Source of the DNA: Saccoglossus kowalevskii
Lineage: Eukaryota > Hemichordata > Enteropneusta > Harrimaniidae
Direction of reading: 5' to 3'
DNA: 64,000 bases
NCBI RefSeq assembly: GCF_000003605.2
Contig: NW_003134803.1
Coordinates: 62,001-126,000, forward strand
A program made the position numbers and the translations under genes. The notes under the pieces are model-generated. The model did no database searches. It had not been told where the DNA came from and saw only the letters and a program-made list of their open reading frames with translations. Every line of letters begins with the position of its first letter. Within the stretch, counting starts at the first letter, position 1. Positions 1-64,000 of this stretch are shown in pieces.

Positions 1-64
1 GCATCCGATTGTATGCCATACTTGTGTTTTCCCGATAAATAGGAAACGCCTTCACACGACAACG
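1..64 (+). repeat. Partial spacer at left edge
   Basis: Tail of a unit spacer whose tRNA gene lies outside the window. It contains the ATAAATA element 30 bp before the first gene. Confidence 0.9.
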
Positions 65-135
65 TCCCATATGTCTTGTGGTTATGATTTGGCGCTTTCA
101 CCGCCAAGGCCCGGGTTCAATTCCAGGTGTGGGAA
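65..135 (+). tRNA. tRNA-Glu(UUC), class B
   Basis: A14 is U, G22 is U, and G51/A63 mismatch. Confidence 0.6.
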
Positions 136-348
136 CACCTGTTTTAGATTCCTGGACAGTTGAACATCGCAGCTTGTATAAAATGCTCATAGACAATTTA
201 ATTAAAAGATATAAATTGGCCTCTCGCATTTGTTGCCTTATTACAAGAGAATATATAATACACGACGTGCAGTTCATGTCACAAGTATCCTATTGTATGC
301 CATACTTGTGTTTTCCCGATAAATAGGAAACGCCTTCAAATGTCAACG

Positions 349-420
349 TCCCATATGGTTTAGTGGTTAGGATTTGTCGCTTTCACCGCCAAGGCTCGGG
401 TTCAATTCCCGGTGTGAGAA
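349..420 (+). tRNA. tRNA-Glu(UUC), class C
   Basis: Typical class C: U12, U29/C41, U49, C3/A70. Confidence 0.62.
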
Positions 421-603
421 CACCCGTTTTAGATTCCTGGTCAATTGAACATCGCAGCTTGTACAAAATTCTCAAAGACAATTTAAATAAAAGATATAAA
501 TTGGCCTCTCGTATTTGTTGCCTTATTACAAGAGAATATATAATACACGACGTGCAGTACATGTCACAAGTATCCTATTATATGCCTTACTTGTGTTTTC
601 CCG

Positions 604-610
604 ATAAATA
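604..610 (+). promoter_or_regulatory. TATA-like element, representative unit
   Basis: ATAAATA lies at -30 to -24 of the gene at 634, the usual TBP/TFIIIB distance for Pol III. The same element precedes almost every gene in the window. Exceptions include ATATATA before 9678, 27696 and 41241, and a damaged copy before 45899. Its activity is inferred. Confidence 0.55.
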
Positions 611-640
611 GGAAACGCCTTCATACGACAACGTCCCATA

Positions 641-652
641 TGGTCTAGTGGT
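641..652 (+). promoter_or_regulatory. Pol III A box, representative unit
   Basis: TGGTCTAGTGGT fits the TRGYNNARNNGG-type A box of eukaryotic tRNA genes. Class B genes have this box shortened by one base. Confidence 0.85.
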
Positions 653-683
653 TAGGATTTGGCGCTTTCACCGCCAAGGCCCG

Positions 684-694
684 GGTTCAATTCC
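684..694 (+). promoter_or_regulatory. Pol III B box, representative unit
   Basis: GGTTCAATTCC matches the TFIIIC B-box consensus GGTTCRANNCC exactly. It is lost or altered in the subfamilies reading GATCAATTCC or GCTTTAATTCC. Confidence 0.88.
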
Positions 695-705
695 CGGTGT
701 GGGAA

Positions 706-918
706 TACCTGTTTTAGATTCCTGGTCAGTTGAACATCGCAGCTTGAATAAAATTCTCATAGACAATTTTATTAAAAGATATAAATTGGCCTCTCGTATT
801 TGTTGCCTTATTACAAGAGAATATATAATACACGACGTGCAGTTCATGTCACAAGTATCCTATTATATGCCTTACTTGTGTTTTCCCGATAAATAGGAAA
901 CGCCTTCATACGTCAACG
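706..918 (+). repeat. Representative 213-bp spacer
   Basis: AT-rich spacer with no gene I can support. In order it holds the TTTT terminator, an AT-rich stretch TTAATTAAAAGATATAAATT, an imperfect hairpin TCTC-gtat-TTGT / ACAAGAGA, a TATATAATA stretch, CACGACGTG, and the ATAAATA element before the next gene. Confidence 0.8.
712..715 (+). terminator. Pol III T-run terminator, representative unit
   Basis: TTTT starts 7 nt after the discriminator base of the gene at 634. The run is kept in nearly all units. It is only TTT after the genes at 5693 and 40103, and it is six T after 18262. Confidence 0.75.
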
Positions 919-989
919 TACCATATGTCTAGTGGTTAGGATTTGGCGCTTTCACCGCCAAGGCCCGGGTTCAATTCCAGGTGTGGGAA
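919..989 (+). tRNA. tRNA-Glu(UUC), class B
   Basis: C2 is A, which breaks pair 2-71, and G51/A63 mismatch. Confidence 0.58.
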
Positions 990-1202
990 CACCTATTTTA
1001 GATTCCTGGACAGTTGAACATCGCAGCTTGTATAAAATGCTCATAGACAATTTTATTAAAAGATATAAATTGGCCTCTCGTATTTGTTGCCTTATTACAA
1101 GAGAATATATAATACACAACTTGCATTTCATGTCACAAGCATCCGATTGTATGCCATACTTGTGTTTTCCCGATAAATAGGAAACGCCTTCAAATGTCAA
1201 CG

Positions 1203-1274
1203 TCCCATATGGTTTAGTGGTTAGGATTTGTCGCTTTCACCGTCAAGGCTCGGGTTCAATTCCCGGTGCGGGAA
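1203..1274 (+). tRNA. tRNA-Glu(UUC), class C variant
   Basis: U29/U41 mismatch and C68, but G70 is restored so pair 3-70 forms. Confidence 0.62.
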
Positions 1275-1487
1275 CACCTGTTTTAGATTCCTGGTCAATT
1301 GAACATCGCAGCTTGTACAAAATTCTCAAAGACAATTTAAATAAAAGATATAAATTGGCCTCTCGTATTTGTTGCCTTATTACAAGAGAATATAGAATAC
1401 ACGACGTGCAGTTCATGTCACAAGTATCCTATTATATGCCTTACTTGTGTTTTCCCGATAAATAGGAAACGCCTTCATACGACAACG

Positions 1488-1559
1488 TCCCACATGGTCT
1501 AGTGGTTAGGATTTGGCGCTTTCACCGCCAAGGCCCGGGTTCAATTCCCGGTGTGGGAA
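1488..1559 (+). tRNA. tRNA-Glu(UUC), class A
   Basis: Consensus except C6, which turns the 6-67 wobble into a C-G pair. Confidence 0.9.
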
Positions 1560-1772
1560 TACCTGTTTTAGATTCCTGGTCAGTTGAACATCGCAGCTTG
1601 TATACAATTCTCAAAGACAATTTAATTAAAAGATATAAATTGGCCTCTCGTATTTGTTGCCTCATTACAAGAGAATATATAATACACGACTTGCAGTTCA
1701 TGTCACAAGCATCCGATTGTATGCCATACTTGTGTCTTCCCGACAAATAGGAAACGCCTTCATACGTCAACG

Positions 1773-1844
1773 TCCCATATGGTCTAGTGGTTAGGATATG
1801 GCGCTTTCACCGCCAAGGCCTGGGTTCAATTCCCGGTGTGAGAA
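1773..1844 (+). tRNA. tRNA-Glu(UUC), class D
   Basis: U50 and C3/A70, with GGATATGG after the D stem. Confidence 0.65.
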
Positions 1845-2057
1845 CACCCGTTTTAGAACTCTGGTCAGTTGAACATCGCAGCTTGTATAAAATGCTCATA
1901 GGCAATTTAATTAAAATATATAAATTGGCCTGTCGTATTTGTTTCCATATTTCAAGAGAATATATAATACACGACGTGCAGTTCATGTCACAAGCATCCG
2001 ATTGTATGCCATACTCGTGTTTTCCCTATAAATAGGCAACGCTTTCAAATGTCAACG

Positions 2058-2084
2058 TCCCATATGGTCTAGTGGTTAGGATTT
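2058..2084 (+). pseudogene. Truncated tRNA-Glu 5' half
   Basis: First 27 nt only, joined directly to GTGCAGTTCATG of the spacer. The unit is 110 bp, and the anticodon arm and B box are gone. Confidence 0.88.
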
Positions 2085-2167
2085 TGTGCAGTTCATGTCA
2101 CAAGCATCCGATTGTATGCCGTACTTGTGTTTTCCCGATAAATAGGAAACGCCTTCATACGACAACT

Positions 2168-2239
2168 TCCCATATGGTCTAGTGGTTAGGATTTGGCGCT
2201 TTCACCGCCAAGGCCCGGGTTCAATTCCCGGTGTGGGAA
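2168..2239 (+). tRNA. tRNA-Glu(UUC), class A consensus
   Basis: Exact consensus. The flank base before the gene is T instead of G. Confidence 0.92.
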
Positions 2240-2452
2240 CACCTGTTTTAGATTCCTGGTCAGGTGTACATCGCAGCTAGTATAAAATGCTCATAGACAA
2301 TTTAATAAAAATATATAAATTGCCCTCTCGTATTTGTTGCCTTATTACAAGAGAATATATAATACACGACGTGCAGTTCATGTCACAAGCATCCGATTGT
2401 ATGCCATACTTGTGTTTTCCCGATAAATAGGAAACGCCTTCATACGACAACG

Positions 2453-2523
2453 TCCCATATGTCTTGTGGTTAGGATTTGGCGCTTTCACCGCCAAGGCCC
2501 GGGATCAATTCCAGGTGTGGGAA
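2453..2523 (+). tRNA. tRNA-Glu(UUC), class B
   Basis: A14 is U, T54 is A (B box GATCAATTCC), and G51/A63 mismatch. Confidence 0.52.
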
Positions 2524-2736
2524 CACCTGTTTTAGATTCCTGGACAGTTGAACGTCGCAGCTTGTATAAAATGCTCATAGACAATTTAATTAAAAGATAT
2601 AAATTGGCCTCTCGTATTTGTTGCCTTATTACAAGAGAATATATAATACACGACGTGCAGTTCATGTCACAAGTATCCTATTATATGCCTTACTTGTGTT
2701 TTCCCGATAAATAGGAAACGCCTTCATACGACAACG

Positions 2737-2808
2737 TCCCATATGGTCTAGTGGTTAGGATTTGGCGCTTTCACCGCCAAGGCCCGGGTTCAATTCCCGG
2801 TGTTGAAA
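2737..2808 (+). tRNA. tRNA-Glu(UUC), class A variant
   Basis: 3' acceptor strand reads TGTTGAA, giving C4/U69 and C2/A71 mismatches. Confidence 0.65.
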
Positions 2809-3021
2809 TACCTGTTTTAGATTCCTGGTCAGTTGCACATCGCAGCTTGTATAAAATTCTCAAAGACAATTTAATTAAAAGATATAAATTGGCCACTCGT
2901 ATTTGTTGCCTTATTACAAGAGAATATATAATACACGACTTGCATTTCATGTCACAAGCATCCGATTGTATGCCATACTTGTGTTTTCACGATAAATAGG
3001 AAACGCCTTCAAATGTCGACG

Positions 3022-3093
3022 TCCCATATGGTTTAGTGGTTAGGATTTGTCGCTTTCACCGCCAAGGCTCGGGTTCAATTCCCGGTGTGAGAA
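3022..3093 (+). tRNA. tRNA-Glu(UUC), class C
   Basis: Typical class C 5' end joined to a class D-like 3' spacer, so a hybrid unit. Confidence 0.62.
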
Positions 3094-3306
3094 CACCCGT
3101 TTTAGATTCCTGGTCAATTGAACATCGCAGCTTGTACAAAATGCACATAGGCAATTTAATTAAAATATATAAATTGGCCTGTCGTATTTGTTGCCTTATC
3201 TCAAGAGAATATATAATACACGACGTGCAGTTCATGTCACAAGTATCCTCTTGTATGCCATACTTGTATTTTCCCGATAAATAGGAAACGCCTTCAAATG
3301 TCAACG

Positions 3307-3378
3307 TCCCATATGGTTTAGTGGTTAGGATTTGTCGCTTTCACCGCCAAGGCTCGGGTTCAATGCCTGGTGTGAGAA
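3307..3378 (+). tRNA. tRNA-Glu(UUC), class C
   Basis: T loop and stem altered to TTCAATGCCTGG. Confidence 0.58.
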
Positions 3379-3591
3379 CACCCGTTTTAGATTCCTGGTC
3401 AATTGAACATCGCAGCTTGTACAAAATTCCCAAAGACAATTTAAATAAAAGATATAAATTGGCCTCTCGTATTTGTTGCCTTATTACAAGAGAATATATA
3501 ATACACGACGTGCAGTTCATGTCACAAGTATCCTATTATATGCCTTACTTGTGTTTTCCCGATAAATAGGAAACGCCTTCATACGACAACG

Positions 3592-3663
3592 TCCCATATG
3601 GTCTAGTGGTTAGGATTTGGCGCTTTCACCGCCAAGGCCCGGGTTCAATTCCCGGTGTGGGAA
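3592..3663 (+). tRNA. tRNA-Glu(UUC), class A consensus
   Basis: Exact consensus. Confidence 0.93.
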
Positions 3664-3876
3664 TACCTGTTTTAGATTCCAGGTCAGTTGAACATCGCAG
3701 CTTGAATAAAATTCTCAAAGACAATTTAATTAAAAGATATAAATTGGCCTCTCGTATTTGTTGCCTTATTACAAGAGAATATATAATACACGACGTGCAG
3801 TTCATGTCACAAGTATCCTAATATATGCCTTACTTGTGTTTTCCCGATAAATAGGAAACGCCTTCATACGACAACG

Positions 3877-3947
3877 TCCCATATGTCTAGTGGTTAGGAT
3901 TTGGCGCTTTCACCGCCAAGGCCCGGGTTCAATTCCAGGTGCGGGAA
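3877..3947 (+). tRNA. tRNA-Glu(UUC), class B
   Basis: C68 opposite A5, and G51/A63 mismatch. Confidence 0.58.
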
Positions 3948-4160
3948 CACCTGTTTTAGATTCCTGGACAGTTGAACATCGCAGCTTGTACAAAATTCTC
4001 ATAGGCAATTTAATTAAAATATATAAATTGGCCTGTCGTATTTGTTGCCTTATTTCAAGAGAATATATAATACACGACGTGCAGTTCATGTCACAAGCAT
4101 CCGATTGTATGCCATACTCGTGTTTTCCCGATAAATAGGCAACGCTTTCAAATGTCAACG

Positions 4161-4187
4161 TCCCATATGGTCTAGTGGTTAGGATTT
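4161..4187 (+). pseudogene. Truncated tRNA-Glu 5' half
   Basis: 110-bp unit with the same junction as at 2058. Confidence 0.88.
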
Positions 4188-4270
4188 TGTGCAGTTCATG
4201 TCACAAGCATCCGATTGTATGCCATACTTGTGTTTTCCCGATAAATAGGAAACGCCTTCATACGACAACG

Positions 4271-4341
4271 TCCCATATGTCTTGTGGTTAGGATTTGGCG
4301 CTTTCACCGCCAAGGCCCGGGATCAATTCCAGGTGTGGGAA
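4271..4341 (+). tRNA. tRNA-Glu(UUC), class B
   Basis: A14 is U, T54 is A, and G51/A63 mismatch. Confidence 0.52.
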
Positions 4342-4553
4342 CACCTGTTTTAGATTCCTGGTCAGTTGACGTCGCAGCTTGAATAAAATTCTCAAAGACA
4401 ATTTTATTAAAAGATATAAATTGGCCTCTCGTATTTGTTGCCTTATTACAAGAGAATATATAATACACGACGTGCAGTTCATGTCGCAAGTATCCTATTA
4501 TATGCCTTACTTGTGTTTTCCCGATAAATAGGAAACGCCTTCATACGTCAACG

Positions 4554-4624
4554 TCCCATATGTCTAGTGGTTAGGATTTGGCGCTTTCACCGCCAAGGCC
4601 CGGGTTCAATTCCAGGTGTGGGAA
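4554..4624 (+). tRNA. tRNA-Glu(UUC), class B
   Basis: Keeps A14; G51/A63 mismatch. Confidence 0.6.
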
Positions 4625-4837
4625 CACCTGTTTTAGATTACTGGACAGTTGAACATCGCAGCTTGTATAAAATGCTCATAGACAATTTAATTAAAAGATA
4701 TAAATTGGCCTCTCGTATTTGTTGCCTTATTACAAGAGAATATATAATACACGACGTGCAGTTCATGTCACAAGTATCCTATTATATGCCTTACTTGTGT
4801 TTTCTCGATAAATAGGAAACGCCTTCATTCGACAACG

Positions 4838-4909
4838 TCCCATATGGTCTAGTGGTTAGTATTTGGCGCTTTCACCGCCAAGGCCCGGGTTCAATTCCCG
4901 GTGTGGGAA
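4838..4909 (+). tRNA. tRNA-Glu(UUC), class A
   Basis: G23 is U, so the D-stem pair 12-23 is lost. Confidence 0.78.
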
Positions 4910-5122
4910 CACCTGTTTTAGATTCCTGGACAGTTGAACATCGCAGCTTGTATAAAATGCTCATAGACAATTTAATTAAAAGATATAAATTGGCCTCTCG
5001 TATTTGTTGCCTTATTACAAGAGAATATATAATACACGACGTGCAGTTCATGTCACAAGTATCCTATTATACGCCTTACTTGTGTTTTCTCGATAAATAG
5101 GAAACGCCTTCATTCGACAACG

Positions 5123-5194
5123 TCCCATATGGTCTAGTGGTTAGTATTTGGCGCTTTCACCGCCAAGGCCCGGGTTCAATTCCCGGTGTGGGAA
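5123..5194 (+). tRNA. tRNA-Glu(UUC), class A
   Basis: Same G23-to-U change as at 4838. Confidence 0.78.
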
Positions 5195-5407
5195 TACCTA
5201 TTTTAGATTCCTGGTCAATTGAACATCGCAGCTTGTACAAAATTCTCAAAGACAATTTAAATAAAAGATATAAATTGGCCTCTCGTATTTGTTGCCTTAT
5301 TACAAGAGAATATATAATACACGACGTGCAGTTCATGTCACAAGTATCCTATTATATGCCTTACTTGTGTTTTCCCGATAAATAGGAAACGCCTTCACAC
5401 GACAATG

Positions 5408-5479
5408 TCCCACATGGTCTAGTGGTTAGGATTTGGCGCTTTCACCGCCAAGGCCCGGGTTCAATTCACGGTGTGGGAA
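5408..5479 (+). tRNA. tRNA-Glu(UUC), class A
   Basis: C6 present; A62 breaks one T-stem pair. Confidence 0.78.
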
Positions 5480-5692
5480 TACCTGTTTTAGATTCCTGGT
5501 CAGTTGAACATCGCAGCTTGTATACAATTTTCAAAGACAATTTAATTAAAAGATATAAATTGGCCTCTCGTATTTGTTGCCTCATTACAAGAGAATATAT
5601 AATACACGACTTGCAGTTCATGTCACAAGCATCCGATTGTATGCCATACTTGTGTTTTCCCGATAAATAGGAAACGCCTTCATACGGCAACG

Positions 5693-5763
5693 TCCCATAT
5701 GTCTTGTGGTTAGGATTTGGCGCTTTCACCGCCAAGGCCCGGGTTCAATTCCAGGTGTGGGAA
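5693..5763 (+). tRNA. tRNA-Glu(UUC), class B
   Basis: A14 is U and G51/A63 mismatch. The terminator is cut to TTT. Confidence 0.55.
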
Positions 5764-5975
5764 CACCTGTTTAGATTCCTGGACAGTTGAACATCGCAGC
5801 TTGTATAAAATGCTCATAGACAATTTAATTAAAAGATATAAATTGGCCTCTCGTATTTGTTGCCTTATTACAAGAGAATATATAATACACGACGTGCAGT
5901 TCATGTCACAAGTATCCTATTGTATGCCATACTTGTATTTTCCCGATAAATAGGAAACGCCTTCAAATGTCAACG

Positions 5976-6047
5976 TCCCATATGGTTTAGTGGTTAGGAT
6001 TTGTTGCTTTCACCGCCAAGGCTCGGGTTCAATTCCTGGTGTGAGAA
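5976..6047 (+). tRNA. tRNA-Glu(UUC), class C
   Basis: U30 added to the class C stem changes; CCTGG T stem. Confidence 0.58.
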
Positions 6048-6260
6048 CACCCGTTTTAGATTCCTGGTCAATTGAACATCGCAGCTTGTACAAAATTCTC
6101 AAAGACAATTTAAATAAAAGATATAAATTGGCCTCTCGTATTTGTTGCCTTATTACAAGAGAATATATAATACACGACGTGCAGTTCATGTCACAAGTAT
6201 CCTATTATATGCCTTACTTGTGTTTTCCCGATAAATAGGAAACGCCTTCATACGACAACG

Positions 6261-6332
6261 TCCCATATCGTCTAGTGGTTAGGATTTGGCGCTTTCACCG
6301 CCAAGGCCCGGGTTCAATTCCCGGTGTGGGAA
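6261..6332 (+). tRNA. tRNA-Glu(UUC), class A
   Basis: G9 is C; all stems pair. Confidence 0.83.
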
Positions 6333-6545
6333 TACCTGTTTTAGATTCCTGGTCAGTTGAACATCGCAGCTTGAATAAAATTCTCAAAGACAATTTAATT
6401 AAAAGATATAAATTGGCCTCTCGTATTTGTTGCCTTATTACAAGAGAATATATAATACACGACGTGCAGTTCATGTCACAAGTATCCTATTATATGCCTT
6501 ACTTGTGTTTTCCCGATAAATAGGAAACGCCTTCATACGACAACG

Positions 6546-6616
6546 TCCCATATGTCTAGTGGTTAGGATTTGGCGCTTTCACCGCCAAGGCCCGGGTTCA
6601 ATTCCAGGTGCGGGAA
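6546..6616 (+). tRNA. tRNA-Glu(UUC), class B
   Basis: C68 and G51/A63 mismatch. Confidence 0.58.
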
Positions 6617-6829
6617 CACCTGTTTTAGATTCCTGGACAGTTGAACATCGCAGCTTGTATAAAATGCTCATAGACAATTTAATTAAAAGATATAAATTGG
6701 CCTCTCGTATTTGTTGCCTTATTACAAGAGAATATATAATACACGACGTGCAGTTCATGTCACAAGTATCCTATTATATGCCTTACTTGTGTTTTCCCGA
6801 TAAATAGGAAACGCCTTCATACGGCAACG

Positions 6830-6900
6830 TCCCATATGTCTTGTGGTTAGGATTTGGCACTTTCACCGCCAAGGCCCGGGTTCAATTCCAGGTGTGGGAA
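6830..6900 (+). tRNA. tRNA-Glu(UUC), class B
   Basis: A14 is U, A31/C39 mismatch and G51/A63 mismatch. Confidence 0.53.
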
Positions 6901-7113
6901 CACCTGTTTTAGATTCCTGGACAGTTGAACATCGCAGCTTGTATAAAATGCTCATAGACAATTTAATTAAAAGATATAAATTGGCCTCTCGTATTTGTTG
7001 CCTTATTACAAGAGAATATATAATACACGACGTGCAGTTCATGTCACAAGTATCCTATTGTATGCCATACTTGTATTTTCCCGATAAATAGGAAACGCCT
7101 TCAAATGTCAACG

Positions 7114-7185
7114 TCCCATATGGTTTAGTGGTTAGGATTTGTCGCTTTCACCGCCAAGGCTCGGGTTCAATTCCTGGTGTGAGAA
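7114..7185 (+). tRNA. tRNA-Glu(UUC), class C
   Basis: Class C with CCTGG T stem. Confidence 0.6.
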
Positions 7186-7398
7186 CACCCGTTTTAGATT
7201 CCTGGTCAATTGAACATCGCAGCTTGTACAAAATTCTCAAAGACAATTTAAATAAAAGATATAAATTGGCCTCTCGTATTTGTTGCCTTATTACAAGAGA
7301 ATATATAATACACGACGTGCAGTTCATGTCTCAAGTATCCTATTATATGCCTTACTTGTGTTTTCCCGATAAATAGGAAACGCCTTCATACGACAACG

Positions 7399-7470
7399 TC
7401 CCATATGGTCTAGTGGTTAGGATTTGGCGCTTTCACCGCCAAGGCCCGGGTTCAATTCCCGGTGTGGGAA
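7399..7470 (+). tRNA. tRNA-Glu(UUC), class A consensus
   Basis: Exact consensus. Confidence 0.93.
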
Positions 7471-7683
7471 TACCTGTTTTAGATTCCTGGTCAGTTGAAC
7501 ATCGCAGCTTGAATAAAATTCTCAAAGACAATTTAATTAAAAGATATAAATTGGCCTCTCGTATTTGTTGCCTTATTACAAGAGAATATATAATACACGA
7601 CGTGCAGTTCATGTCACAAGTATCCTATTATATGCCTTACTTGTGTTTTCCCGATAAATAGGAAACGCCTTCATACGACAACG

Positions 7684-7754
7684 TCCCATATGTCTAGTGG
7701 TTAGGATTTGGCGCTTTCACCGCCAAGGCCCGGGTTCAATTCCAGGTGCGGGAA
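7684..7754 (+). tRNA. tRNA-Glu(UUC), class B
   Basis: C68 and G51/A63 mismatch, as at 6546. Confidence 0.58.
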
Positions 7755-7967
7755 CACCTGTTTTAGATTCCTGGACAGTTGAACATCGCAGCTTGTATAA
7801 AATGCTCATAGACAATTTAATTAAAAGATATAAATTGGCCTCTCGTATTTGTTGCCTTATTACAAGAGAATATATAATACACGACGTGCTGTTCATGTCA
7901 CAAGTATCCTATTATATGCCTTACTTGTGTTTTCCCGATAAATAGGAAACGCCTTCATACGACAACG

Positions 7968-8039
7968 TCCCATATGGTCTAGTGGTTAGGATTTGGCGCT
8001 TTCACCGCCAAGGCCCGGGTTCAATTCCCGGTGTGGGAA
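7968..8039 (+). tRNA. tRNA-Glu(UUC), class A consensus
   Basis: Exact consensus. Confidence 0.93.
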
Positions 8040-8252
8040 TACCTGTTTTAGATTCCTGGTCAGTTGCACATCGCAGCTTGTATAAAATTCTCAAAGACAA
8101 TTTAATTAAAAGATATAAATTGGCCACTCATATTTGTTGCCTTATTACAAGAGAATATATAATACACGACTTGCATTTCATGTCACAAGCATCCGATTGT
8201 ATGCCATACTTGTGTTTTCCCGATAAATAGGAAACGCCTTCAAATGTCAACG

Positions 8253-8324
8253 TCCCATATGGTTTAGTGGTTAGGATTTGTCGCTTTCACCGCCAAGGCA
8301 CGGGTTCAATTCCCGGTGTGAGAA
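8253..8324 (+). tRNA. tRNA-Glu(UUC), class C/D hybrid
   Basis: Class C gene (with A49) followed by a class D flank. Confidence 0.58.
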
Positions 8325-16486: not shown

Positions 16487-16506
16487 AACGCCTTCATACG
16501 ACAACG

Positions 16507-19225: not shown

Positions 19226-19305
19226 TCCCATATGTCTTGTGGTTAGGATTTGGCGCTTTCACCGCTTTCACCGCCAAGGCCCGGGTTCAATTCCCGGTGT
19301 GGGAA
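19226..19305 (+). tRNA. tRNA-Glu(UUC), class B with 9-bp insertion
   Basis: Same anticodon-arm duplication as at 13032; A14 is U. Confidence 0.5.
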
Positions 19306-19518
19306 CACCTGTTTTAGATTCCTGGTCAGTTGAACATCGCAGCTTGTACAAAATTCTCAAAGACAATTTAATTAAAAGATATAAATTGGCCTCTCGTATT
19401 TTTTGCCTTATTACAAGAGAATATATAATACACGACTTGCAGTTCATGTCACAAGCATCCGATTGTATGCCATACTCGTGTTTTCCCGATAAATAGGCAA
19501 CGCTTTCAAATGTCATCG

Positions 19519-19590: not shown

Positions 19591-19784
19591 CACCCGTTTT
19601 AGATTCCTGGTCAATTGAACATCGCAGCTTGTACAAAATTCTCAAAGACAATTTAAATAAAAGATTTAGAGAATATATCTCGTATTTGTTGCCTTATTAC
19701 AAGAGAATATATAATACACGACGTGCAGTTCATGTCACAAGTATCGTATCATATGCCTTACTTGTGTTTTCCCGATAAATAAGA

Positions 19785-19832
19785 ATAAGTATTCTATTAT
19801 ATGCCTTACTTGTGTTTTCCCGATAAATAAGA
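19785..19832 (+). repeat. 48-bp spacer duplication
   Basis: Spacer-end duplication placing an extra ATAAATA upstream of the gene at 19853. Confidence 0.83.
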
Positions 19833-19852
19833 AACACCTTCATACGACAACG

Positions 19853-32353: not shown

Positions 32354-32424
32354 TCCCATATGTCTTGTGGTTAGGATTTGGCGCTTTGACCGCCAAGGCC
32401 CGGGATCAATTCCCGGTGTGGGAA
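32354..32424 (+). tRNA. tRNA-Glu body with anticodon UUG (Gln)
   Basis: The anticodon loop reads CTTTGAC, so 34-36 (32,386-32,388) is TTG, which would pair with CAA glutamine codons. The rest is a class B tRNA-Glu with U14 and A54. G9/G10 loss and the altered B box suggest weak or no expression. Anticodon bases are strong identity elements for both GluRS and GlnRS, so charging cannot be predicted from the body alone. A sequencing error is possible. Confidence 0.6.
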
Positions 32425-32637
32425 CACCTGTTTTATATTCCTGGTCAGTTGAACATCGCAGCTTGTATAAAATGCTCATAGACAATTTAATTAAAAGATA
32501 TAAATTGGCCTCTCGTATTTATTGCCTTATTACAAGAGAATATATAATACTCGACGTGCAGTTCATGTCACAAGTATCGTATTATATGCCTTACTTGGGT
32601 TTTCCCGATAAATAGGAAACGCCTTCAAATGTCGTCG

Positions 32638-55668: not shown

Positions 55669-55740
55669 TCCCATATGGTCTAGTGGTTAGGATTTGGTGC
55701 TTTCACCGCCAAGGCTCGGTTTCAATTCCCGGTGTGGGAA
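55669..55740 (+). tRNA. tRNA-Glu(UUC), class A
   Basis: U30 wobble, U49, and U53/C61 mismatch. Confidence 0.73.
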
Positions 55741-55953
55741 CACCTGTTTTAGATTCCTGGTCAGTTGAACATCGCAGCTTTTACAAAATTCTCAAAGACA
55801 ATTTAAATAAAAGATATAAATTGGCCTCTCGTATTTGTTGCCTTATTACAAGAGAATATATAATACACGACGTGCAGTTCATGTCACAAGTATCGTATTA
55901 TATGCCTTACTTGGGTTTTCCCGATAAATAGGAAACGCCTTCAAACGTCGTCG

Positions 55954-56025
55954 TCCCATATGGTCTAGTGGTTAGGATTTGGCGCTTTCACTGCCAAGGC
56001 CCGGATTCAATTCCCGGGGTGGGAA
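55954..56025 (+). tRNA. tRNA-Glu(UUC), class A variant
   Basis: U39, A53/C61 and G66. Confidence 0.66.
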
Positions 56026-56238
56026 CACCTGTTTTAGATTCCTGGTCAGTTGAACATCGCAGCTTGTATAAAATGCTCATAGACAATTTAATTAAAATAT
56101 ATAAATTGGCCGCTCGTCTTTGTTGCCTTATTACAAGAGAATATATAATACACGACGTGCAGTTCATGTCACAACTATCCGATTGCATGCCATACTTGTG
56201 TTTTCCCGATAAATAGGAAACGCCTTCAAATGTCATCG

Positions 56239-56310
56239 TCCCATATGGTCTAGTGATTAGGATTTGGCGCTTTCAACGCCAAGGCTCGGATTCAATTCCC
56301 GGTGTGGGAA
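56239..56310 (+). tRNA. tRNA-Glu(UUC), class A variant
   Basis: Same gene as at 52823, followed by a third kind of spacer. Confidence 0.65.
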
Positions 56311-56523
56311 CACCTATTTTAGATTCCTGGTCAGTTGAACATCGCTGCTTGTATAATATGCTCATAGACAATTTAATTAAAAGATATAAATTGGCCTCTC
56401 GTATTTGTTGCCTTATTACAAGGGAATATATAATACACGACGTGCAGTTCATGTCACAAGTATCCGATTATATGCCTTACTTGTGTTTTCCCGATAAATA
56501 GGAAACGCCTTCATACGTCAACG

Positions 56524-56594
56524 TCCCATATGGTCTAGTGGTTAGGATTTGGCGCTTTCACCGCCAGGCCCGGGTTCAATTCCCGGTGTGGGAA
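56524..56594 (+). tRNA. tRNA-Glu(UUC), variable loop shortened
   Basis: One A is missing after the anticodon stem. The following spacer has lost many single bases, unlike its neighbours. Confidence 0.65.
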
Positions 56595-56798
56595 CACCTG
56601 TTTTAGATTCCTGGTCAGTGACATCGCAGTTGTATAAAATTCACAAAGACAATTAATAAAGATATAAATGTCCTCTCGTATTATTGCTTATTTCAAGAGA
56701 ATATATAATACACGACTTACAGTTTATGTCACAATCATTAGATTGTATGCCATACTTGTGTTTTCCCGATAAATAGGAAACGCCTTCAAATGTCAACG

Positions 56799-56883
56799 TC
56801 CCATATGGTCTAGTGGTTAGGATGTGGCGCTTTCACCGCCAAGGCCCGGGTTCAATTCCCGGGTTCAATTCCCGGTGTGTAAA
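56799..56883 (+). pseudogene. tRNA-Glu(UUC) with duplicated T arm
   Basis: A 13-bp duplication gives two overlapping B-box sequences, and the acceptor strand reads TGTGTAA. It is the better preserved relative of the copy at 13325. Confidence 0.65.
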
Positions 56884-57096
56884 CACTTCTTTTAGATTCC
56901 TGGTCAGTTGAACATCGCAGCTTGTACAAAATTCTCAAAGACAATTTGAATAAAAGATATAAATTGGCCTCTCGTATTTGTTGCTTTATTACAAGAGAAT
57001 ATATAATACAGGACGTGCAGTTGATGACACAAGTATCGTATTATATGCCTCACTTGTGTTTTCAAGATAAATAGGAAACGCCTTCATACGACAACG

Positions 57097-57167
57097 TCCT
57101 ATGTGTCTAGTGATTAGGATTTGGCGCTTTCACCGCCAAGGCCCGGGTTCAATTCCCGGTGTGGGAA
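57097..57167 (+). tRNA. tRNA-Glu(UUC), class B
   Basis: TCCTATGTG 5' end with A18. Confidence 0.55.
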
Positions 57168-57380
57168 CACCTGTTTTAGATTCCTGGTCAGTTGAACATC
57201 GCAGCATGTATAAAATTAGCATAGACAATTTAATTAAAAGATATAATTTGGCCTCTCGTATTTGTTGCCTTATTGCAAGAGAATATATAATACACGACGT
57301 GCAGTTCATGTCACAAGTATCCTATTATATGCCTTACTTGTGTTTTCCCGATAAATAGGAAACGCTTTCATACGACAACG

Positions 57381-57451
57381 TCCCATATGTCTTGTGGTTA
57401 GGATTTGGCGCTTTCACCGCCAAGGCCCGGGATCAATTCCCGGTGTGGGAA
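57381..57451 (+). tRNA. tRNA-Glu(UUC), class B
   Basis: A14 is U and T54 is A. Confidence 0.53.
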
Positions 57452-57664
57452 CACCTGTTTTATATTCCTGGTCAGTTGAACATCGCAGCTTGTATAAAAT
57501 GCTCATAGACAATTTAATTAAAAGATATAAATCGGCCTCTCGTATTTATTGCCTTATTACAAGAGAATATATAATACACGACGTGCAGTTCATGTCACAA
57601 GTATCCTATTACATGCCTTACTTGTGTTTTCCCGATAAATAGGAAACGACTTCAAATGTCAACG

Positions 57665-57736
57665 TCCCATATGGTCTAGTGGTTAGAATTTGGCGCTTTC
57701 ACCGCCGAGGCTCGGCTTCAATTCCCGGTGTGTGAA
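57665..57736 (+). tRNA. tRNA-Glu(UUC), class A variant
   Basis: C12/A23, G44, U49, C53/C61 and C3/U70. Confidence 0.57.
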
Positions 57737-57949
57737 CACCTCTTTTAGATTCCTGGTCAGTTGAACATCGCAGCTTGTACAAAATTCTCAAAGACAATTT
57801 GAATAAAAGATATAAATTGGCCTCTCGTATTTGTTGCTTTATTACAAGAGAATATATAATACAGGACGTGCAGATGATGACACAAGTATCGTATTATATG
57901 CCTTACTTGTGTTTTCAAGATAAATAGGAAACGCCTTCATACGACAACG

Positions 57950-58020
57950 TCCCATGTGTCTAGTGATTAGGATTTGGCGCTTTCACCGCCAAGGCCCGGG
58001 TTCAATTCCCGGTGTGGGAA
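57950..58020 (+). tRNA. tRNA-Glu(UUC), class B
   Basis: TCCCATGTG 5' end with A18. Confidence 0.56.
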
Positions 58021-58233
58021 CACCTGTTTTAGATTCCTGGTCAGTTGAACATCGCAGCATGTATAAAATTAGCATAGACAATTTAATTAAAAGATATAAT
58101 TTGGCCTCTCGTATTTGTTGCCTTATTGCAAGAGAATATATAATACACGACGTGCAGTTCATGTCACAAGTATCCTATTATATGCCTTACTTGTGTTTTC
58201 CCGATAAATAGGAAACGCTTTCATACGACAACG

Positions 58234-58304
58234 TCCCATATGTCTTGTGGTTAGGATTTGGCGCTTTCACCGCCAAGGCCCGGGATCAATTCCCGGTGTG
58301 GGAA
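58234..58304 (+). tRNA. tRNA-Glu(UUC), class B
   Basis: A14 is U and T54 is A. Confidence 0.53.
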
Positions 58305-58517
58305 CACCTGTTTTATATTCCTGGTCAGTTGAACATCGCAGCTTGTATAAAATGCTCATAGACAATTTAATTAAAAGATATAAATCGGCCTCTCGTATTT
58401 ATTGCCTTATTACAAGAGAATATATAATACACGACGTGCAGTTCATGTCACAAGTATCCTATTACATGCCTTACTTGTGTTTTCCCGATAAATAGGAAAC
58501 GCCTTCAAATGTCAACG

Positions 58518-58589
58518 TCCTATATGGTCTAGTGGTTAGGATTTGGCGCTTTCACCGCAAAGGCCCGTGTTCAATTCCCGGTGTGGGAA
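58518..58589 (+). tRNA. tRNA-Glu(UUC), class A variant
   Basis: U4, A42 and U52, as at 31785. Confidence 0.68.
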
Positions 58590-58802
58590 CACCTGTTTTA
58601 GATTCCTGGTCAGTTGAACATCGCAGCTTGTATAAAATGCTCATAGACAATTGAATTAAAAGATATAAATTGGCCTCTCGTATTTGTTGCCTTATTGCAA
58701 GAGAATATATAATACACGACGTGCAGTTCATGTCACAAGTGTCCTATTATATGCCTTACTTGTGTTTTCCCGATAAATAGGAAACGCCTTCATACGACAA
58801 CG

Positions 58803-58873
58803 TTCCATATGTCTTGTGGTTAGGATTTGGCGCTTTCACCGCCAAGGCCCGGGTTCAATTCCCGGTGTGGGAA
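58803..58873 (+). tRNA. tRNA-Glu(UUC), class B
   Basis: U2 wobble and A14 is U. The T-run after it is preceded by GC: CTGCTTTAG has only TTT. Confidence 0.53.
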
Positions 58874-59085
58874 CACCTGCTTTAGATTCCTGGTCAGTTG
58901 AACATCGCAGCCTGTATAAAATGCGCATAACAATTTAATTAAAATATATAAATTGGCGTCTCGTATTTGTTGCCTTATTACTTGTGAATATATAATACAC
59001 GACGTGCAGTTCATGTCACAAGCATCCGATTATATGCCATACTCGTGTTTTCCCGATAAATAGGAAACGCTTTCAAATGTCAACG

Positions 59086-59112
59086 TCCCATATGGTCTAG
59101 TGGTTAGGATTT
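59086..59112 (+). pseudogene. Truncated tRNA-Glu 5' half
   Basis: 110-bp unit, common junction. Confidence 0.88.
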
Positions 59113-59195
59113 TGTGCAGTTCATGTCACAAGCATCCGATTGTATGCCGTACTTGTGTTTTCCCGATAAATAGGAAACGCCTTCATACGACAACG

Positions 59196-59266
59196 TCCCA
59201 TATGTCTTGTGGTTAGGATTTGGCGCTTTCACCGCCAAGGCCCGGGTTCAATTCCAGGTGTGGGAA
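59196..59266 (+). tRNA. tRNA-Glu(UUC), class B
   Basis: A14 is U; G51/A63 mismatch. Confidence 0.58.
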
Positions 59267-59479
59267 CACCTGTTTTAGATTCCTGGACAGTTGAACATCG
59301 CAGCTTGTATAAAATGCTCATAGACAATTTAATTAAAAGATATAAATTGGCTTCTCGTATTTGTTGCCTTATTACAAGAGAATATATAATACACGACGTG
59401 CAGTTCATGTCACAAGTATCCTATTATATGCCTTACTTGTGTTTTCCCGATAAATAGGAAACGCCTTCATACGACATCG

Positions 59480-59551
59480 TCCCATATGGTCTAGTGGTTA
59501 CGATTTGGCGCTTTCACCGCTAAGGCACGGGTTCAATTCTCGGTGTGGGAA
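59480..59551 (+). tRNA. tRNA-Glu(UUC), class A variant
   Basis: C22, U42 wobble, A49/G65 and U62 wobble. Confidence 0.66.
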
Positions 59552-59764
59552 TACCTGTTTTAGATTCCTGGTCAGTTGCACATCGCAGCTTGTATAAAAT
59601 AATCAAAGACAATTTAATCAAAAGATATAAATTGGCCACTCGTATTTGTTGCCTTATTACAAGAGAATATATAATACACGACTTGCATTTCATGTCACAA
59701 GCATCCGATCGTATGCCATACTTGTGTTTTCCCGATAAATGGGAAACGCCTTCAAATGTCAACG

Positions 59765-59836
59765 TCCCATATGGTTTAGTGGTTAGGATTTGTCGCTTTC
59801 ACTGCCAAGGCTCGGGTTCAATTCCCGGTGTGAGAA
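59765..59836 (+). tRNA. tRNA-Glu(UUC), class C
   Basis: Class C with U39. Confidence 0.6.
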
Positions 59837-60049
59837 CACCCGTTTTAGATTCCTGGTCAATTGAACATCGCAGCTTGTACAAAATTCTCAAAGACAATTT
59901 AAATAAAAGACATAAATTCGCCTCTCGTATTTGTTGCCTTATTACATGAGAATATATAATACACGACGTGCAGTTCATGTCACAAGCATCCGATTGTATG
60001 CCATACTCGTGTTTTCCCGATAAATAGGAAACGCTTTCAAATGTCAACG

Positions 60050-60076
60050 TCCCATATGGTCTAGTGGTTAGGATTT
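60050..60076 (+). pseudogene. Truncated tRNA-Glu 5' half
   Basis: 110-bp unit, common junction. Confidence 0.88.
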
Positions 60077-60159
60077 TGTGCAGTTCGTGTCACAAGCATC
60101 CGATTGTATGCCGTACTTGTGTTTTCCCGATAAATAGGAAACGCCTTCATACGACAACG

Positions 60160-60231
60160 TCCCATATGGTCTAGTGGTTGGGATTTGGCGCTTTCACCGC
60201 CAAGGCCCGGGTTCAATTCCCGGTGTGGGAA
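60160..60231 (+). tRNA. tRNA-Glu(UUC), class A
   Basis: Consensus except G21. Confidence 0.88.
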
Positions 60232-60444
60232 CACTTGTTTTAGATTCCTGGTCAGGTGTACATCGCAGCTAGTATAAAATGCTCATAGACAATTTAATAA
60301 AAATATATAAATTGCCCTCTCGTATTTGTTGCCTTATTACAAGAGAATATATAATACACGACGTGCAGTTCATGTCACAAGCATCCGATTGTATGCCATA
60401 CTTGTGTTTTCCCGATAAATAGGAAACGCCTTCATACGACAACG

Positions 60445-60524
60445 TCCAATATGTCTTGTGGTTAGGATTTGGCACTTTCACCGCTTTCACCGCCAAGGCC
60501 CGGGTTCAATTCCCGGTGTGGGAA
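60445..60524 (+). tRNA. tRNA-Glu(UUC), class B with 9-bp insertion
   Basis: Anticodon-arm duplication, A4 and GGCAC; partner of the copy at 35540. Confidence 0.47.
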
Positions 60525-60737
60525 TACCTGTTTTAGATTCCTGGTCAGTTGAACATCGCAGCTTGTATAAAATTCCCAAAGACAATTTAATTAAAAGACA
60601 TAAATTGGCCTCTCGTATTTGTTGCCTTATTACATGAGAATATATAATACACGACGTGCAGTTCATGTCACAAGCATCCGATTATATGCCATACTCGTGT
60701 TTTCCCGATAAATAGGAAACGCTTTCAAATGTCAACG

Positions 60738-60764
60738 TCCCATATGGTCTAGTGGTTAGGATTT
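60738..60764 (+). pseudogene. Truncated tRNA-Glu 5' half
   Basis: 110-bp unit; the junction continues TTTTGTACAG. Confidence 0.88.
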
Positions 60765-60847
60765 TGTACAGTTCATGTCACAAGCATCCGATTGTATGCC
60801 GTACTTGTGTTTTCCCGATAAATAGGAAACGCCTTCATACGACAACG

Positions 60848-60919
60848 TCCCATATGGTCTAGTGGTTAGGATTTGGCGCTTTCACCGCCAAGGACCGGGT
60901 TCAATTCCAGGTGTGGGAA
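60848..60919 (+). tRNA. tRNA-Glu(UUC), A/B hybrid
   Basis: Full-length 5' part with a class B T stem (G51/A63) and spacer; A48. Confidence 0.72.
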
Positions 60920-61132
60920 CACCTGTTTTAGATTCCTGGACAGTTGAACATCGCAGCTTGTATAAAATGCTCATAGACAATTTAATTAAAAGATATAAAT
61001 TGGCCTCTCGTATTTGTTGCCTTATTACAAGAGAATATATAATACACGACGTGCAGTTCATGTCACAAGTATCCTATTATATGCCTTACTTGTGTTTTCC
61101 CGATAAATAGGAAACGCCTTCATACGACATCG

Positions 61133-61204
61133 TCCCATATGGTCTAGTGGTTACGATTTGGCGCTTTCACCGCTAAGGCCCGGGTTCAATTCTCGGTGTG
61201 GGAA
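61133..61204 (+). tRNA. tRNA-Glu(UUC), class A
   Basis: C22, U42 wobble and U62 wobble. Confidence 0.74.
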
Positions 61205-61417
61205 TACCTGTTTTAGATTCCTGGTCAGTTGCACATCGCAGCTTGTATAAAATTCTCAAAGACAATTTAATTAAAAGATATAAATTGGCCACTCGTATTT
61301 GTTGCCTTATTACAAGAGAATATATAATACACGACTTGCATTTCATGTCACAAGCATCCGATCGTATGCCATACTTGTGTTTTCCCGATAAATAGGAAAC
61401 GCCTTCAAATGTCAACG

Positions 61418-61489
61418 TCCCATATGGTTTAGTGGTTAGGATTTGTCGCTTTCACCGCCAAGGCTCGGGTTCAATTCCCGGGGTGAGAA
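61418..61489 (+). tRNA. tRNA-Glu(UUC), class C
   Basis: Class C with G66. Confidence 0.58.
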
Positions 61490-61713
61490 CACCCGTTTTA
61501 GATTCCTGGTCAATTGAACATCGCAGCTTGTACAAAATTCTCAAAGACAATTTAAATAAAAGATATAAATTGGCCTCTCGTATTTGTTGCCTTATTACAA
61601 GAGAATATATAATACACGACGTGCAGTTCATGTCACAAGTATCCTATTATATGCCTTACTTGTGTTTTCCCGATAAATAGGAAACGCCTTCATAACGCCT
61701 TCATACGACAACG

Positions 61714-61785
61714 TCCCATATGGTCTAGTGGTTAGGATTTGTCGCTTTCACCGCCAAGGCCCGGGTTCAATTCCCGGTGTGGGAA
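61714..61785 (+). tRNA. tRNA-Glu(UUC), A/C hybrid
   Basis: Only U29/C41 from class C; acceptor and T arm are class A. Preceded by a short duplication ACGCCTTCATA. Confidence 0.75.
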
Positions 61786-61998
61786 TACTTGTTTTAGATT
61801 CCTGGTCAGTTGAACATCGCAGCTTGAATAAAATTCTCAAAGACAATTTAATTAAAAGATATAAATTGGCCTCTCGTATTTGTTGCCTTATTACAAGAGA
61901 ATATATAATACACGACGTGCAGTTCATGTCACAAGTATCCTATTATATGCCTTACTTGTGTTTTCCCGATAAATAGGAAACGCCTTCAAATGTCAACG

Positions 61999-62070
61999 TC
62001 CCATATCGTTTAGTGGTTAGGATTTGTCGCTTTCACCGTCAAGGCTCGGGTTCAATTCCCGGTGCGGGAA
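61999..62070 (+). tRNA. tRNA-Glu(UUC), class C variant
   Basis: C9, U29/U41, C68 with G70. Confidence 0.6.
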
Positions 62071-62283
62071 CACCCGTTTTAGATTCCTGGTCAATTGAAC
62101 ATCGCAGCTTGTACAAAATTCTCAAAGACAATTTAAATAAAAGATATAAATTGCCCTCTCGTATTTGTTGCCTTATTACAAGAGAATATATAATACACGA
62201 CGTGCAGTTCATGTCACAAGTATCCTATTATATGCCTTACTTGTGTTTTCCCGATAAATAGGAAACGCCTTCATACGACAACG

Positions 62284-62355
62284 TCCCACATGGTCTAGTG
62301 GTTAGGATTTGGCGCTTTTACCGCCAAGGCCCGGGTTCAATTCCCGGTGTGGGAA
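62284..62355 (+). tRNA. tRNA-Glu body with anticodon UUU (Lys)
   Basis: The anticodon loop reads CTTTTAC, so 34-36 (62,317-62,319) is TTT, which would pair with AAA lysine codons. All stems pair and C6 strengthens the acceptor, so the body is sound. The change also makes TTTT inside the gene, a possible early Pol III stop. It could be a harmless mutation in a redundant array or a sequencing error. Confidence 0.7.
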
Positions 62356-62568
62356 TACCTGTTTTAGATTCCTGGTCAGTTGAACATCGCAGCTTGAATA
62401 AAATTCTCAAAGACAATTTAATTAAAAGATATAAATTGGCCTCTCATATTTGTTGCCTTATTACAAGAGAATATATAATACACGACGTGCAGTTCATGTC
62501 ACAAGTATCCTATTATATGCCTTACTTGTGTTTTCCCGATAAATAGGAAACGCCTTCATACGACAACG

Positions 62569-62640
62569 TCCCACATGGTCTAGTGGTTAGGATTTGTCGC
62601 TTTCACCGCCAAGGCTCGGGTTCAATTCCCGGTGTGAGAA
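62569..62640 (+). tRNA. tRNA-Glu(UUC), class C
   Basis: C6 and C12 kept; U29/C41 and C3/A70. Confidence 0.63.
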
Positions 62641-62853
62641 CACCCGTTTTAGATTCCTGGTCAATTGAACATCGCAGCTTGTACAAAATTCTCAAAGACA
62701 ATTTAAATAAAAGATATAAATTGGCCTCTCATATTTGTTGCCTTATTACAAGACAATATATAATACACGACGTGCAGTTCATGTCACAAGTATCCTATTA
62801 TATGCCTTACTTGTGTTTTCCCGATAAATAGGAAACGCCTTCATTCGACAACG

Positions 62854-62925
62854 TCCCATATGGTCTAGTGGTTAGGATTTGGCGCTTTCACCGCCAAGGC
62901 CCGGGTTCAATTCCCGGTGTGGGAA
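62854..62925 (+). tRNA. tRNA-Glu(UUC), class A consensus
   Basis: Exact consensus. Confidence 0.93.
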
Positions 62926-63138
62926 TACCTGTTTTAGATTCCTGGTCAGTTGAATATCGCAGCTTGTATAAAATTCTCAAAGACAATTTAATTAAAAGAT
63001 ATAAATTGGCCTCTCGTATTTGTTGCCTTATTACAAGAGAATATATAATACACAACTTGCATTTCATGTCACAAGCATCCGATTGTATGCCATACTTGTG
63101 TTCTCCCGATAAATAGGAAACGCCTTCAAATGTCAACG

Positions 63139-63210
63139 TCCCATATGGTTTAGTGGTTAGGATTTGTCGCTTTCACCGTCAAGGCTCGGGTTCAATTCCC
63201 GGTGCGGGAA
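63139..63210 (+). tRNA. tRNA-Glu(UUC), class C variant
   Basis: U29/U41 and C68 with G70. Confidence 0.62.
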
Positions 63211-63423
63211 CACCCGTTTTAGATTCCTGGTCAATTGAACATCGCAGCTTGTACAAAATTCTCAAAGACAATTTAAATAAAAGATATAAATTGGCCTCTC
63301 GTATTTGTTGCCTTATTACAAGAGAATATATAATACACGACGTGCAGTTCATGTCACAAGTATCCTATTATATGCCTTTCTTGTGTTTTCCCGATAAATA
63401 GGAAACGCCTTCATACGACAACG

Positions 63424-63495
63424 TCCCACATGGTCTAGTGGTTAGGATTTGGCGCTTTCACCGCCAAGGTCCGGGTTCAATTCCCGGTGTGGGAA
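63424..63495 (+). tRNA. tRNA-Glu(UUC), class A
   Basis: C6 and U48; all stems pair. Confidence 0.87.
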
Positions 63496-63708
63496 TACCT
63501 GTTTTAGATTCCTGGTCAGTTGAACATCGCAGCTTGTATACAATTCTCAAAGACAATTTAATTAAAAGATATAATTTGGCCTCTCGTATTTGTTACCTCA
63601 TTACAAGAGAATATATAATACACGACTTGCAGTTCATGTCACAAGCATCCGATTGTATGCCATACTTGTGTCTTCCCAATAAATAGGAAACGCCTTCATA
63701 CGTCAACG

Positions 63709-63780
63709 TCCCATATGGTCTAGTGGTTAGGATTTGGGGCTTTCACCGCCAAGGCCTGGGTTCAATTCCCGGTGTGAGAA
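63709..63780 (+). tRNA. tRNA-Glu(UUC), class D
   Basis: Class D with G30/G40 mismatch. Confidence 0.6.
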
Positions 63781-63993
63781 CACCCGTTTTAGAACTCTGG
63801 TCAGTTGAACATCGCAGCTTGTATAAAATGCTCATAGGCAATTTAATTAAAATATATAAATTGGCCTGTCGTATTTGTTGCGTTATTTCAAGAGAATATA
63901 TAATACACGACGTGCAGTTCATGTCACAAACATCAGATTGTATGCCATACTCGTGTTTTCCCGATAAATAGGCAACGCTTTCAAATGTCAACG

Positions 63994-64000
63994 TCCCATA
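63994..64000 (+). tRNA. tRNA-Glu, cut by window edge
   Basis: First seven bases only; the array continues past the window. Confidence 0.7.

Follow-up and report, generated by a model that had tools for sequence, protein, structure and literature searches.

Does a stretch of DNA that repeats one transfer RNA (tRNA) gene hundreds of times form a battery of working genes, or has a gene turned into satellite DNA? The question is raised by a 64,000 bp window of the enteropneust hemichordate Saccoglossus kowalevskii, comprising bases 62,001–126,000 of contig C2654, which is occupied from end to end by a tRNA-Glu-derived array (1..64000, + strand). The first-pass annotation, made from the letters alone, had described it as an uninterrupted array of about 214 tRNA-Glu(UUC) genes. 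Weighing the variation among the copies, the ordinary tRNA-Glu genes of the same assembly (572,110,611 bp in 4,830 contigs, over which the searches were run) and a group of sister arrays, we consider the window very probably a satellite which arose from a tRNA-Glu(CUC) gene, has since changed its anticodon to UUC and undergoes concerted evolution, selection on individual copies not being detectable.

Structure and extent of the tRNA-Glu array

The monomer of approximately 285 bp holds an entire tRNA-Glu gene with A box, B box and a TTTT terminator. Alignment of the window gave 220 B-box anchors, composed of 214 full tRNA copies and six fragments; the earlier copy number was, therefore, exact, and all copies lie on the + strand. 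ARAGORN predicted 205 tRNA genes on this strand only (203 Glu(TTC), one Gln(TTG) and one Lys(TTT)), and the Rfam model RF00005 produced 210 matches over its gathering score, with a top score of 65.1 bits and at least 55 bits in 61 of them. The proposed recurrence every 285 bp applies to most units, with a step of 285 or 284 bp in 159 of the 212 intervals of one spacer anchor, but it is not strict: the next commonest steps of 395, 293 and 333 bp are due to internal 110-bp duplications, 9-bp insertions in the tRNA and 48-bp duplications, respectively. No complete open reading frame of more than 134 amino acids was found in the window (frames open at a window edge were not listed), in line with the claim that it contains no other gene.

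A lesion-free copy identical to the consensus may serve as an example (634..705, +; anticodon TTC, 63.3 bits with Rfam). The TATA-like GATAAATA stands 24–31 nt 5′ of it (603..610, +), and diversity is only 0.00–0.05 at all eight positions of this element (column counts, 183 units). A TTTT, the Pol III-type terminator (Pol III, RNA polymerase III), follows 6 nt past the tRNA end (712..715, +) and is kept at this distance behind 202 of 215 B-box anchors; the spacer of the unit covers 213 nt (706..918, +). All 21 tRNA pairs form in the array consensus, in which the acceptor stem is intact.

The array extends well beyond the window. C2654 (129,187 bp, no N) is array end to end with 436 full copies, the first anchor at 375 and the last at 129,140, and no anchor was detected on its opposite strand with up to one mismatch allowed. 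Both ends had been described as open, and this holds for the entire contig. Exact unit strings were present on eight further contigs, namely C103 (14,945 bp), C742 (25,412 bp), C983 (33,814 bp), C1197 (32,659 bp), C1449 (10,071 bp), C3111 (29,528 bp), C3505 (14,645 bp) and C4635 (10,905 bp). The nine array contigs sum to 301,166 bp if they are array throughout, which was read directly for C2654 in full, for the greater part of C742 and for short pieces of the other contigs and is assumed for the remainder; since the eight contigs were searched for by exact matches, further arrays may exist. Two unit families can be distinguished, that of C2654 with 285 bp and a sister family with mostly 286–298 bp, which are about 89% alike.

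Mean pairwise identity of the C2654 units is 92.4% (7.6% difference) and stays at 0.917–0.928 at every lag along the 129 kb, while stretches at least 97% alike reach 2.7 kb, some at lags up to 98 kb. Within the window, identity by unit lag is likewise nearly flat, lag 3 standing slightly above the other lags (0.932 vs. 0.925–0.929), and a regular higher-order repeat is not claimed. Thus, the array has two of the properties by which satellite DNA is recognized, a long head-to-tail arrangement on one strand of a single non-protein-coding monomer and concerted evolution, and we would file it as tRNA-derived satellite DNA.

Copy variation and test for selection

Lesions were scored as broken pairs, altered key bases (T8, A14, T33 and four T-loop bases) and indels. 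Only 28 of the 214 copies in the window and 52 of the 436 in C2654 are lesion-free. Lesion counts of the single copies fit a Poisson distribution, the mean being about 2 (p = 0.65 for the contig, 0.59 for the window; copies with at least 10 lesions were excluded from the mean but retained in the counts), from which 58.1 lesion-free copies are expected in the contig and 31.7 in the window. Therefore, intact copies do not form a class of their own.

Diversity was determined in 371 standard-length units of C2654, leaving out 58 of 429 units outside 270–300 bp. The tRNA body is no better conserved than the spacer, in diversity (0.0805 vs. 0.0742) as well as in rare variants per site (6.58 vs. 5.04), and compared with every circular 72-base frame of the unit, its position is the 73rd percentile in diversity and the 99th in rare variants. 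Distinct rare changes which break a pair are not depleted (58 vs. 45.2 expected from spacer rates), and those which preserve a pair are not enriched (11 vs. 12.6). For changes of all frequencies, the corresponding numbers are 68 vs. 55.9 expected and 19 vs. 17.0 expected. Of the marks of a functional tRNA gene cluster, the array has the consensus fold, the A and B boxes and the terminator, but not a tRNA conserved above its spacer. The array was correctly described as a large one-strand tandem array in a eukaryote, whereas an array of tRNA genes in a functional sense is not supported: the copies vary like the spacer, their stems are unprotected and few are free of lesions. “Genes” is too strong a term for most copies of the array.

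Probable origin from a tRNA-Glu(CUC) gene and change of the anticodon

Ordinary tRNA-Glu genes outside the arrays were used as a control. An exact search with the 72 bases of Glu(CTC) gave 13 matches, nine of them on array contigs and four outside the arrays (C166 twice, C257 and C354). Identity of these four over 72 nt is inherent to an exact search; however, three had first been found by a pattern of the 3′ end only and then proved identical throughout, and the flanks of all four look different from one another by eye. Fixed patterns with the T-loop GGTTCGA had missed Glu genes because other fixed positions did not fit, and a looser pattern recovered the dispersed genes. All four dispersed Glu(CTC) genes score 61.8 bits. 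First-pass annotation had named pseudogene-range scores for nearly all copies as a finding which would speak against it, and this applies only in part, as 61 of the 210 window matches lie at or above 55 bits and 17 reach the 61.8 bits of the dispersed genes. A different Glu(TTC) isodecoder is present outside the arrays in five identical copies (C2360, C2367 twice, C2917 and C4447; exact search), and the three of them that were scored all reach 65.6 bits. The genome thus has separate genes for both Glu anticodons, and the array is not its only Glu(UUC) locus; diverged dispersed genes would be missed by exact searches.

Array consensus and dispersed Glu(CTC) differ in a single one of 72 bases, i.e., wobble base 34, which is changed from C to T. 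The other Glu(UUC) gene, in contrast, departs from the array consensus in the anticodon stem, the acceptor stem and the T loop. Since base 34 is the only difference, the array is most likely the offspring of the CUC gene rather than of the genome’s other Glu(UUC) gene. The array also shows a mark of an isoacceptor shift, namely a tRNA body identical or nearly so to that of a gene with a different anticodon for the same amino acid. An array-type TTC gene was not found outside the arrays in a search restricted to copies not preceded by G, all seven matches lying on array contigs.

The two unit families differ in their anticodons. Among units with a full upstream spacer, those of the 285-bp family nearly all carry TTC (C2654 404/412, C983 12/12, C3505 6/7, C1449 6/6), whereas the sister arrays are mixed, with CTC:TTC ratios of 32:28 in C742 (63 units), 6:1 in C103, 6:2 in C1197, 4:3 in C3111 and 5:1 in C4635. 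Without the spacer condition, C742 has 36 CTC and 28 TTC among 80 anchors and C103 has seven and one of eight. A CTC form identical to the dispersed gene occurs nine times within the sister arrays (C103, C742, C1197 and C3111). Hence, the purity of anticodon noted for the window is confirmed for C2654, where 428 of 436 copies have TTC, but does not extend to the arrays genome-wide. A tree was calculated from spacers only, using 148 units (a random draw of 60 from the 428 units of the 285-bp family, together with 35 TTC and 53 CTC units of the other family; units with other anticodons were left out). On this tree, two changes of array family and 20 changes of anticodon are counted, the latter compared to a mean of 43.9 with shuffled labels (lowest of 200: 37). 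The anticodon thus tracks the spacer only partly, as expected with recombination inside mixed arrays.

Taken together, we propose that one tRNA-Glu(CUC) gene with about 213 bp of flank would have been duplicated in tandem, and that unequal crossing-over and conversion over stretches of ca. 1–3 kb would have spread the array and would hold the copies about 92% alike whatever their distance. The array would then have split into the two unit families, in one of which the C34T mutation of the anticodon was presumably carried near fixation.

Outside the tRNA, the similarity of the four dispersed Glu(CTC) genes to the array unit ceases within 18 nt. On C166, three degenerate tRNA-Glu matches lie next to an intact tRNA-Glu(CTC) gene (L036 458–1307), and a second intact gene is found 3.2 kb off (L035), with the degenerate matches between the two. 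This locus was considered as the birthplace of the array and rejected; as its matches to the unit likewise stop within 18 nt of the tRNA, the source of the spacer was not found.

Counterarguments and alternative explanations

Several observations weigh against a satellite free of selection on its copies. The anticodon TTC is kept in nearly all C2654 copies (see above), and 17 of the 436 have the exact consensus. Diversity is below the spacer mean of 0.074 in the tRNA loops together (0.048), the anticodon loop (0.021), the B box (0.055) and the TTTT (0.024), which could reflect weak constraint. However, distinct rare changes per site are similar in loops (1.57), anticodon loop (1.57) and spacer (1.46), and the B box alone is lower (0.91). 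Both sides of a pair are changed in 24 cases, in 11 of which the bases still pair, six of these being of one kind. Further, the units share descent, and neither lesion counts nor rare changes are, therefore, independent. Finally, it is the dispersed genes, and not an outgroup species, that provide the basis for placing CTC before TTC.

A chromosomal role would be compatible with a tRNA-derived satellite: the dense A and B boxes might bind TFIIIC or Pol III, and the array might serve as a centromeric, boundary or heterochromatin satellite. Hundreds of box pairs on one strand fit this idea, as does the fact that the array contigs stand alone, which satellite contigs often do. Moreover, the human tRNA repeat at 1q23.3 has been implicated as a boundary element (PMC4041453). 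On the other hand, the boxes are not clearly protected, with a diversity of 0.132 in the A box and 0.055 in the B box compared to 0.074 in the spacer, and we regard this role as unlikely.

The array could also be a functional battery supplying bulk tRNA-Glu(UUC), as 5S rDNA does for 5S rRNA, in which decay of single copies is tolerated because the intact ones suffice. In its favor, lesion-free copies do exist in window and contig, the consensus fold is complete, the terminator is in place behind most copies, a TATA-like element is situated at −31 to −24, and anticodon loop, B box and TTTT are low in diversity. Nevertheless, intact copies are not above the number left by random damage, pair-breaking changes are not depleted, the tRNA body varies as the spacer does, and separate, sequence-identical Glu(CUC) and Glu(UUC) genes are available. 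A battery is, therefore, rejected as the principal explanation and appears quite improbable. Yet, Pol III signals are kept by descent in each copy, so that low-level transcription is possible and some intact copies may be transcribed by Pol III; given the other Glu(CUC) and Glu(UUC) genes, the cell need not depend on the array. We see a slim chance that transcription of intact copies yields an additional tRNA-Glu(UUC) isodecoder whose body is that of tRNA-Glu(CUC), or that the copies with 110-bp duplications give 5′ tRNA pieces, in amounts varying with array length between animals. If true, a selfish satellite would set part of the tRNA pool.

An artefact, with the assembler having multiplied or scrambled a small number of real copies, could account for the lack of unique flank at the array contig ends that were read. 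However, 174 of the 183 standard-length units in the window are distinct in sequence, and the two unit families reside on different contigs, with only two changes of array type on the spacer tree. We, thus, give very little credence to this explanation.

Short interspersed elements (SINEs) combine a tRNA-related head with an unrelated part, and a Pol III terminator is not known to follow straight after the tRNA in their head. The unit has a SINE-like plan and might be a tandem tRNA-Glu-derived retroposon or a portion of one; satellites of this type are known in reptiles (PMC10702118). In contrast to such an origin, the consensus acceptor stem is intact and the TTTT is found 6 nt past the tRNA 3′ end. 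A 46-bp string of the leader had 68 exact matches, all on array contigs (C103, C742, C983, C1197, C2654, C3111, C3505 and C4635; diverged copies would be missed by this search), and the dispersed Glu(CTC) genes lose their similarity to the unit within 18 nt of the tRNA. On these four grounds a SINE origin was rejected and seems scarcely credible. A prokaryotic, phage or plasmid origin was dismissed, with no match of one unit in phage and plasmid collections or of a 22-base spacer string in viral and GTDB contigs.

Comparison with known tRNA repeats

Large tandem arrays are known from the tRNA arrays of Entamoeba, the Xenopus tRNA repeat and the tRNA arrays of zebrafish, which mix several tRNA types per unit or array. 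The human variable number tandem repeat at 1q23.3 consists of units of 7.3 kb, 9–43 of them per allele, each carrying five tRNA genes (Leu, Gly, Glu, Gly, Asp), and its tRNA genes are conserved to mouse while nearly all else is not (PMC4041453). It resembles the tRNA-Glu satellite in being a tandem repeat with tRNA genes, tRNA-Glu included, of high and varying copy number. However, the unit described here has 285 bp and one tRNA, occurs in hundreds of copies and does not conserve its tRNA above the spacer. In plants, tandem clusters contain up to 26 identical tRNA genes or as many as 37 repeats of a two- or three-gene unit, and tRNA genes that lie close together but are not identical form clusters of 2 to 110 (PMC12652284). 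Tandem tRNA gene duplication at a spacing below 1 kb, mostly with one anticodon per pair, is shared with the plant clusters (PMC12652284), whereas 436 diverged, mostly lesioned copies on a single contig are not.

Satellites of squamate reptiles derive from portions of SINEs (PMC10702118) and, thus, also represent satellite-like arrays arising from another repeat class. Here, in contrast, an entire tRNA gene, terminator included, is the source, and a dispersed copy of the spacer was not detected by exact search. Anticodon shifts between isoacceptors of one amino acid, as found for the array, have been detected by synteny in orthologous genes and linked to tRNA gene redundancy (PMC3923123). Unlike in those cases, the shifted form here runs through a satellite, and sister arrays contain it side by side with the unshifted one. 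The change of a wobble base across an array family suggests how concerted evolution can spread an anticodon switch in the absence of selection. More generally, the locus offers a clear case of a housekeeping tRNA gene becoming satellite DNA, with parent-type genes, both anticodons and the decay visible in a single genome.

Composition of tRNA genes differs more between echinoderms and hemichordates than among echinoderms, according to a sea cucumber paper (PMC8580430), and the array may be one cause of this difference. The available parts of PMC12191414 and PMC2770079 contain nothing on such an array. Among the literature matches listed, no paper was recognized as describing it, with most subscription journals and all preprints outside the coverage; this is a weak indication that the array is unpublished.

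Variant units, array edges and further observations

Length variants of the unit are frequent. Partial duplications of 110 bp (23 steps in the window; example at 1976..2194, +) comprise the upstream region and the first ~27 nt of the tRNA with its A box. The 5′ tRNA piece which each of them adds behind the upstream region runs into TTTT, and the resulting truncated copies keep an A box but lack a B box. Duplications of 48 bp upstream, which yield the 333-bp units, account for seven steps (example at 19739..19833, +), and nine copies carry the 9-nt insertion, for instance the 81-nt copy at 19226..19306 (+). The copy called Gln has the anticodon TTG (32354..32425, +). The copy called Lys (anticodon TTT; 62284..62355, +) is lesion-free and provides the top Rfam score of the window (65.1 bits). 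In C742 (L009–L018), short steps of 209–210 bp recur, in which a repeated upstream piece replaces most of the tRNA body.

The contig ends read, those of all array contigs except C103, lie in array apart from one end each of C2654, C3505 and C4635, and a unique flank is absent. C2654 and C3505 each have a few non-array bases at one end; the end of C2654 and the start of C3505 share the short string CCTGGTGATGAA, the last bases of which are non-array. The units next to CCTGGTGATGAA on the two contigs are not closest relatives, and perhaps a common array boundary is represented. At the right end of C4635 (L032 110–800), the array abuts a dispersed element, of which 40 of 40 scored copies, C4635 included and taken from 492 candidates, are near-full-length. 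A true array edge at this position was rejected, the flank being part of this element. Many copies of the element show its first ~167 bases again in inverted orientation some hundred bases further, giving it the look of a DNA transposon bounded by terminal inverted repeats.

A last observation concerns the mitochondrial contig C4830 (17,037 bp; L021), the cox1 of which shows 100% identity to the S. kowalevskii protein on record and thereby identifies the host. Neither AGA nor AGG occurs as a codon in cox1 or cox2, and several ATA codons of cox1 stand at positions that are isoleucine in other animals.

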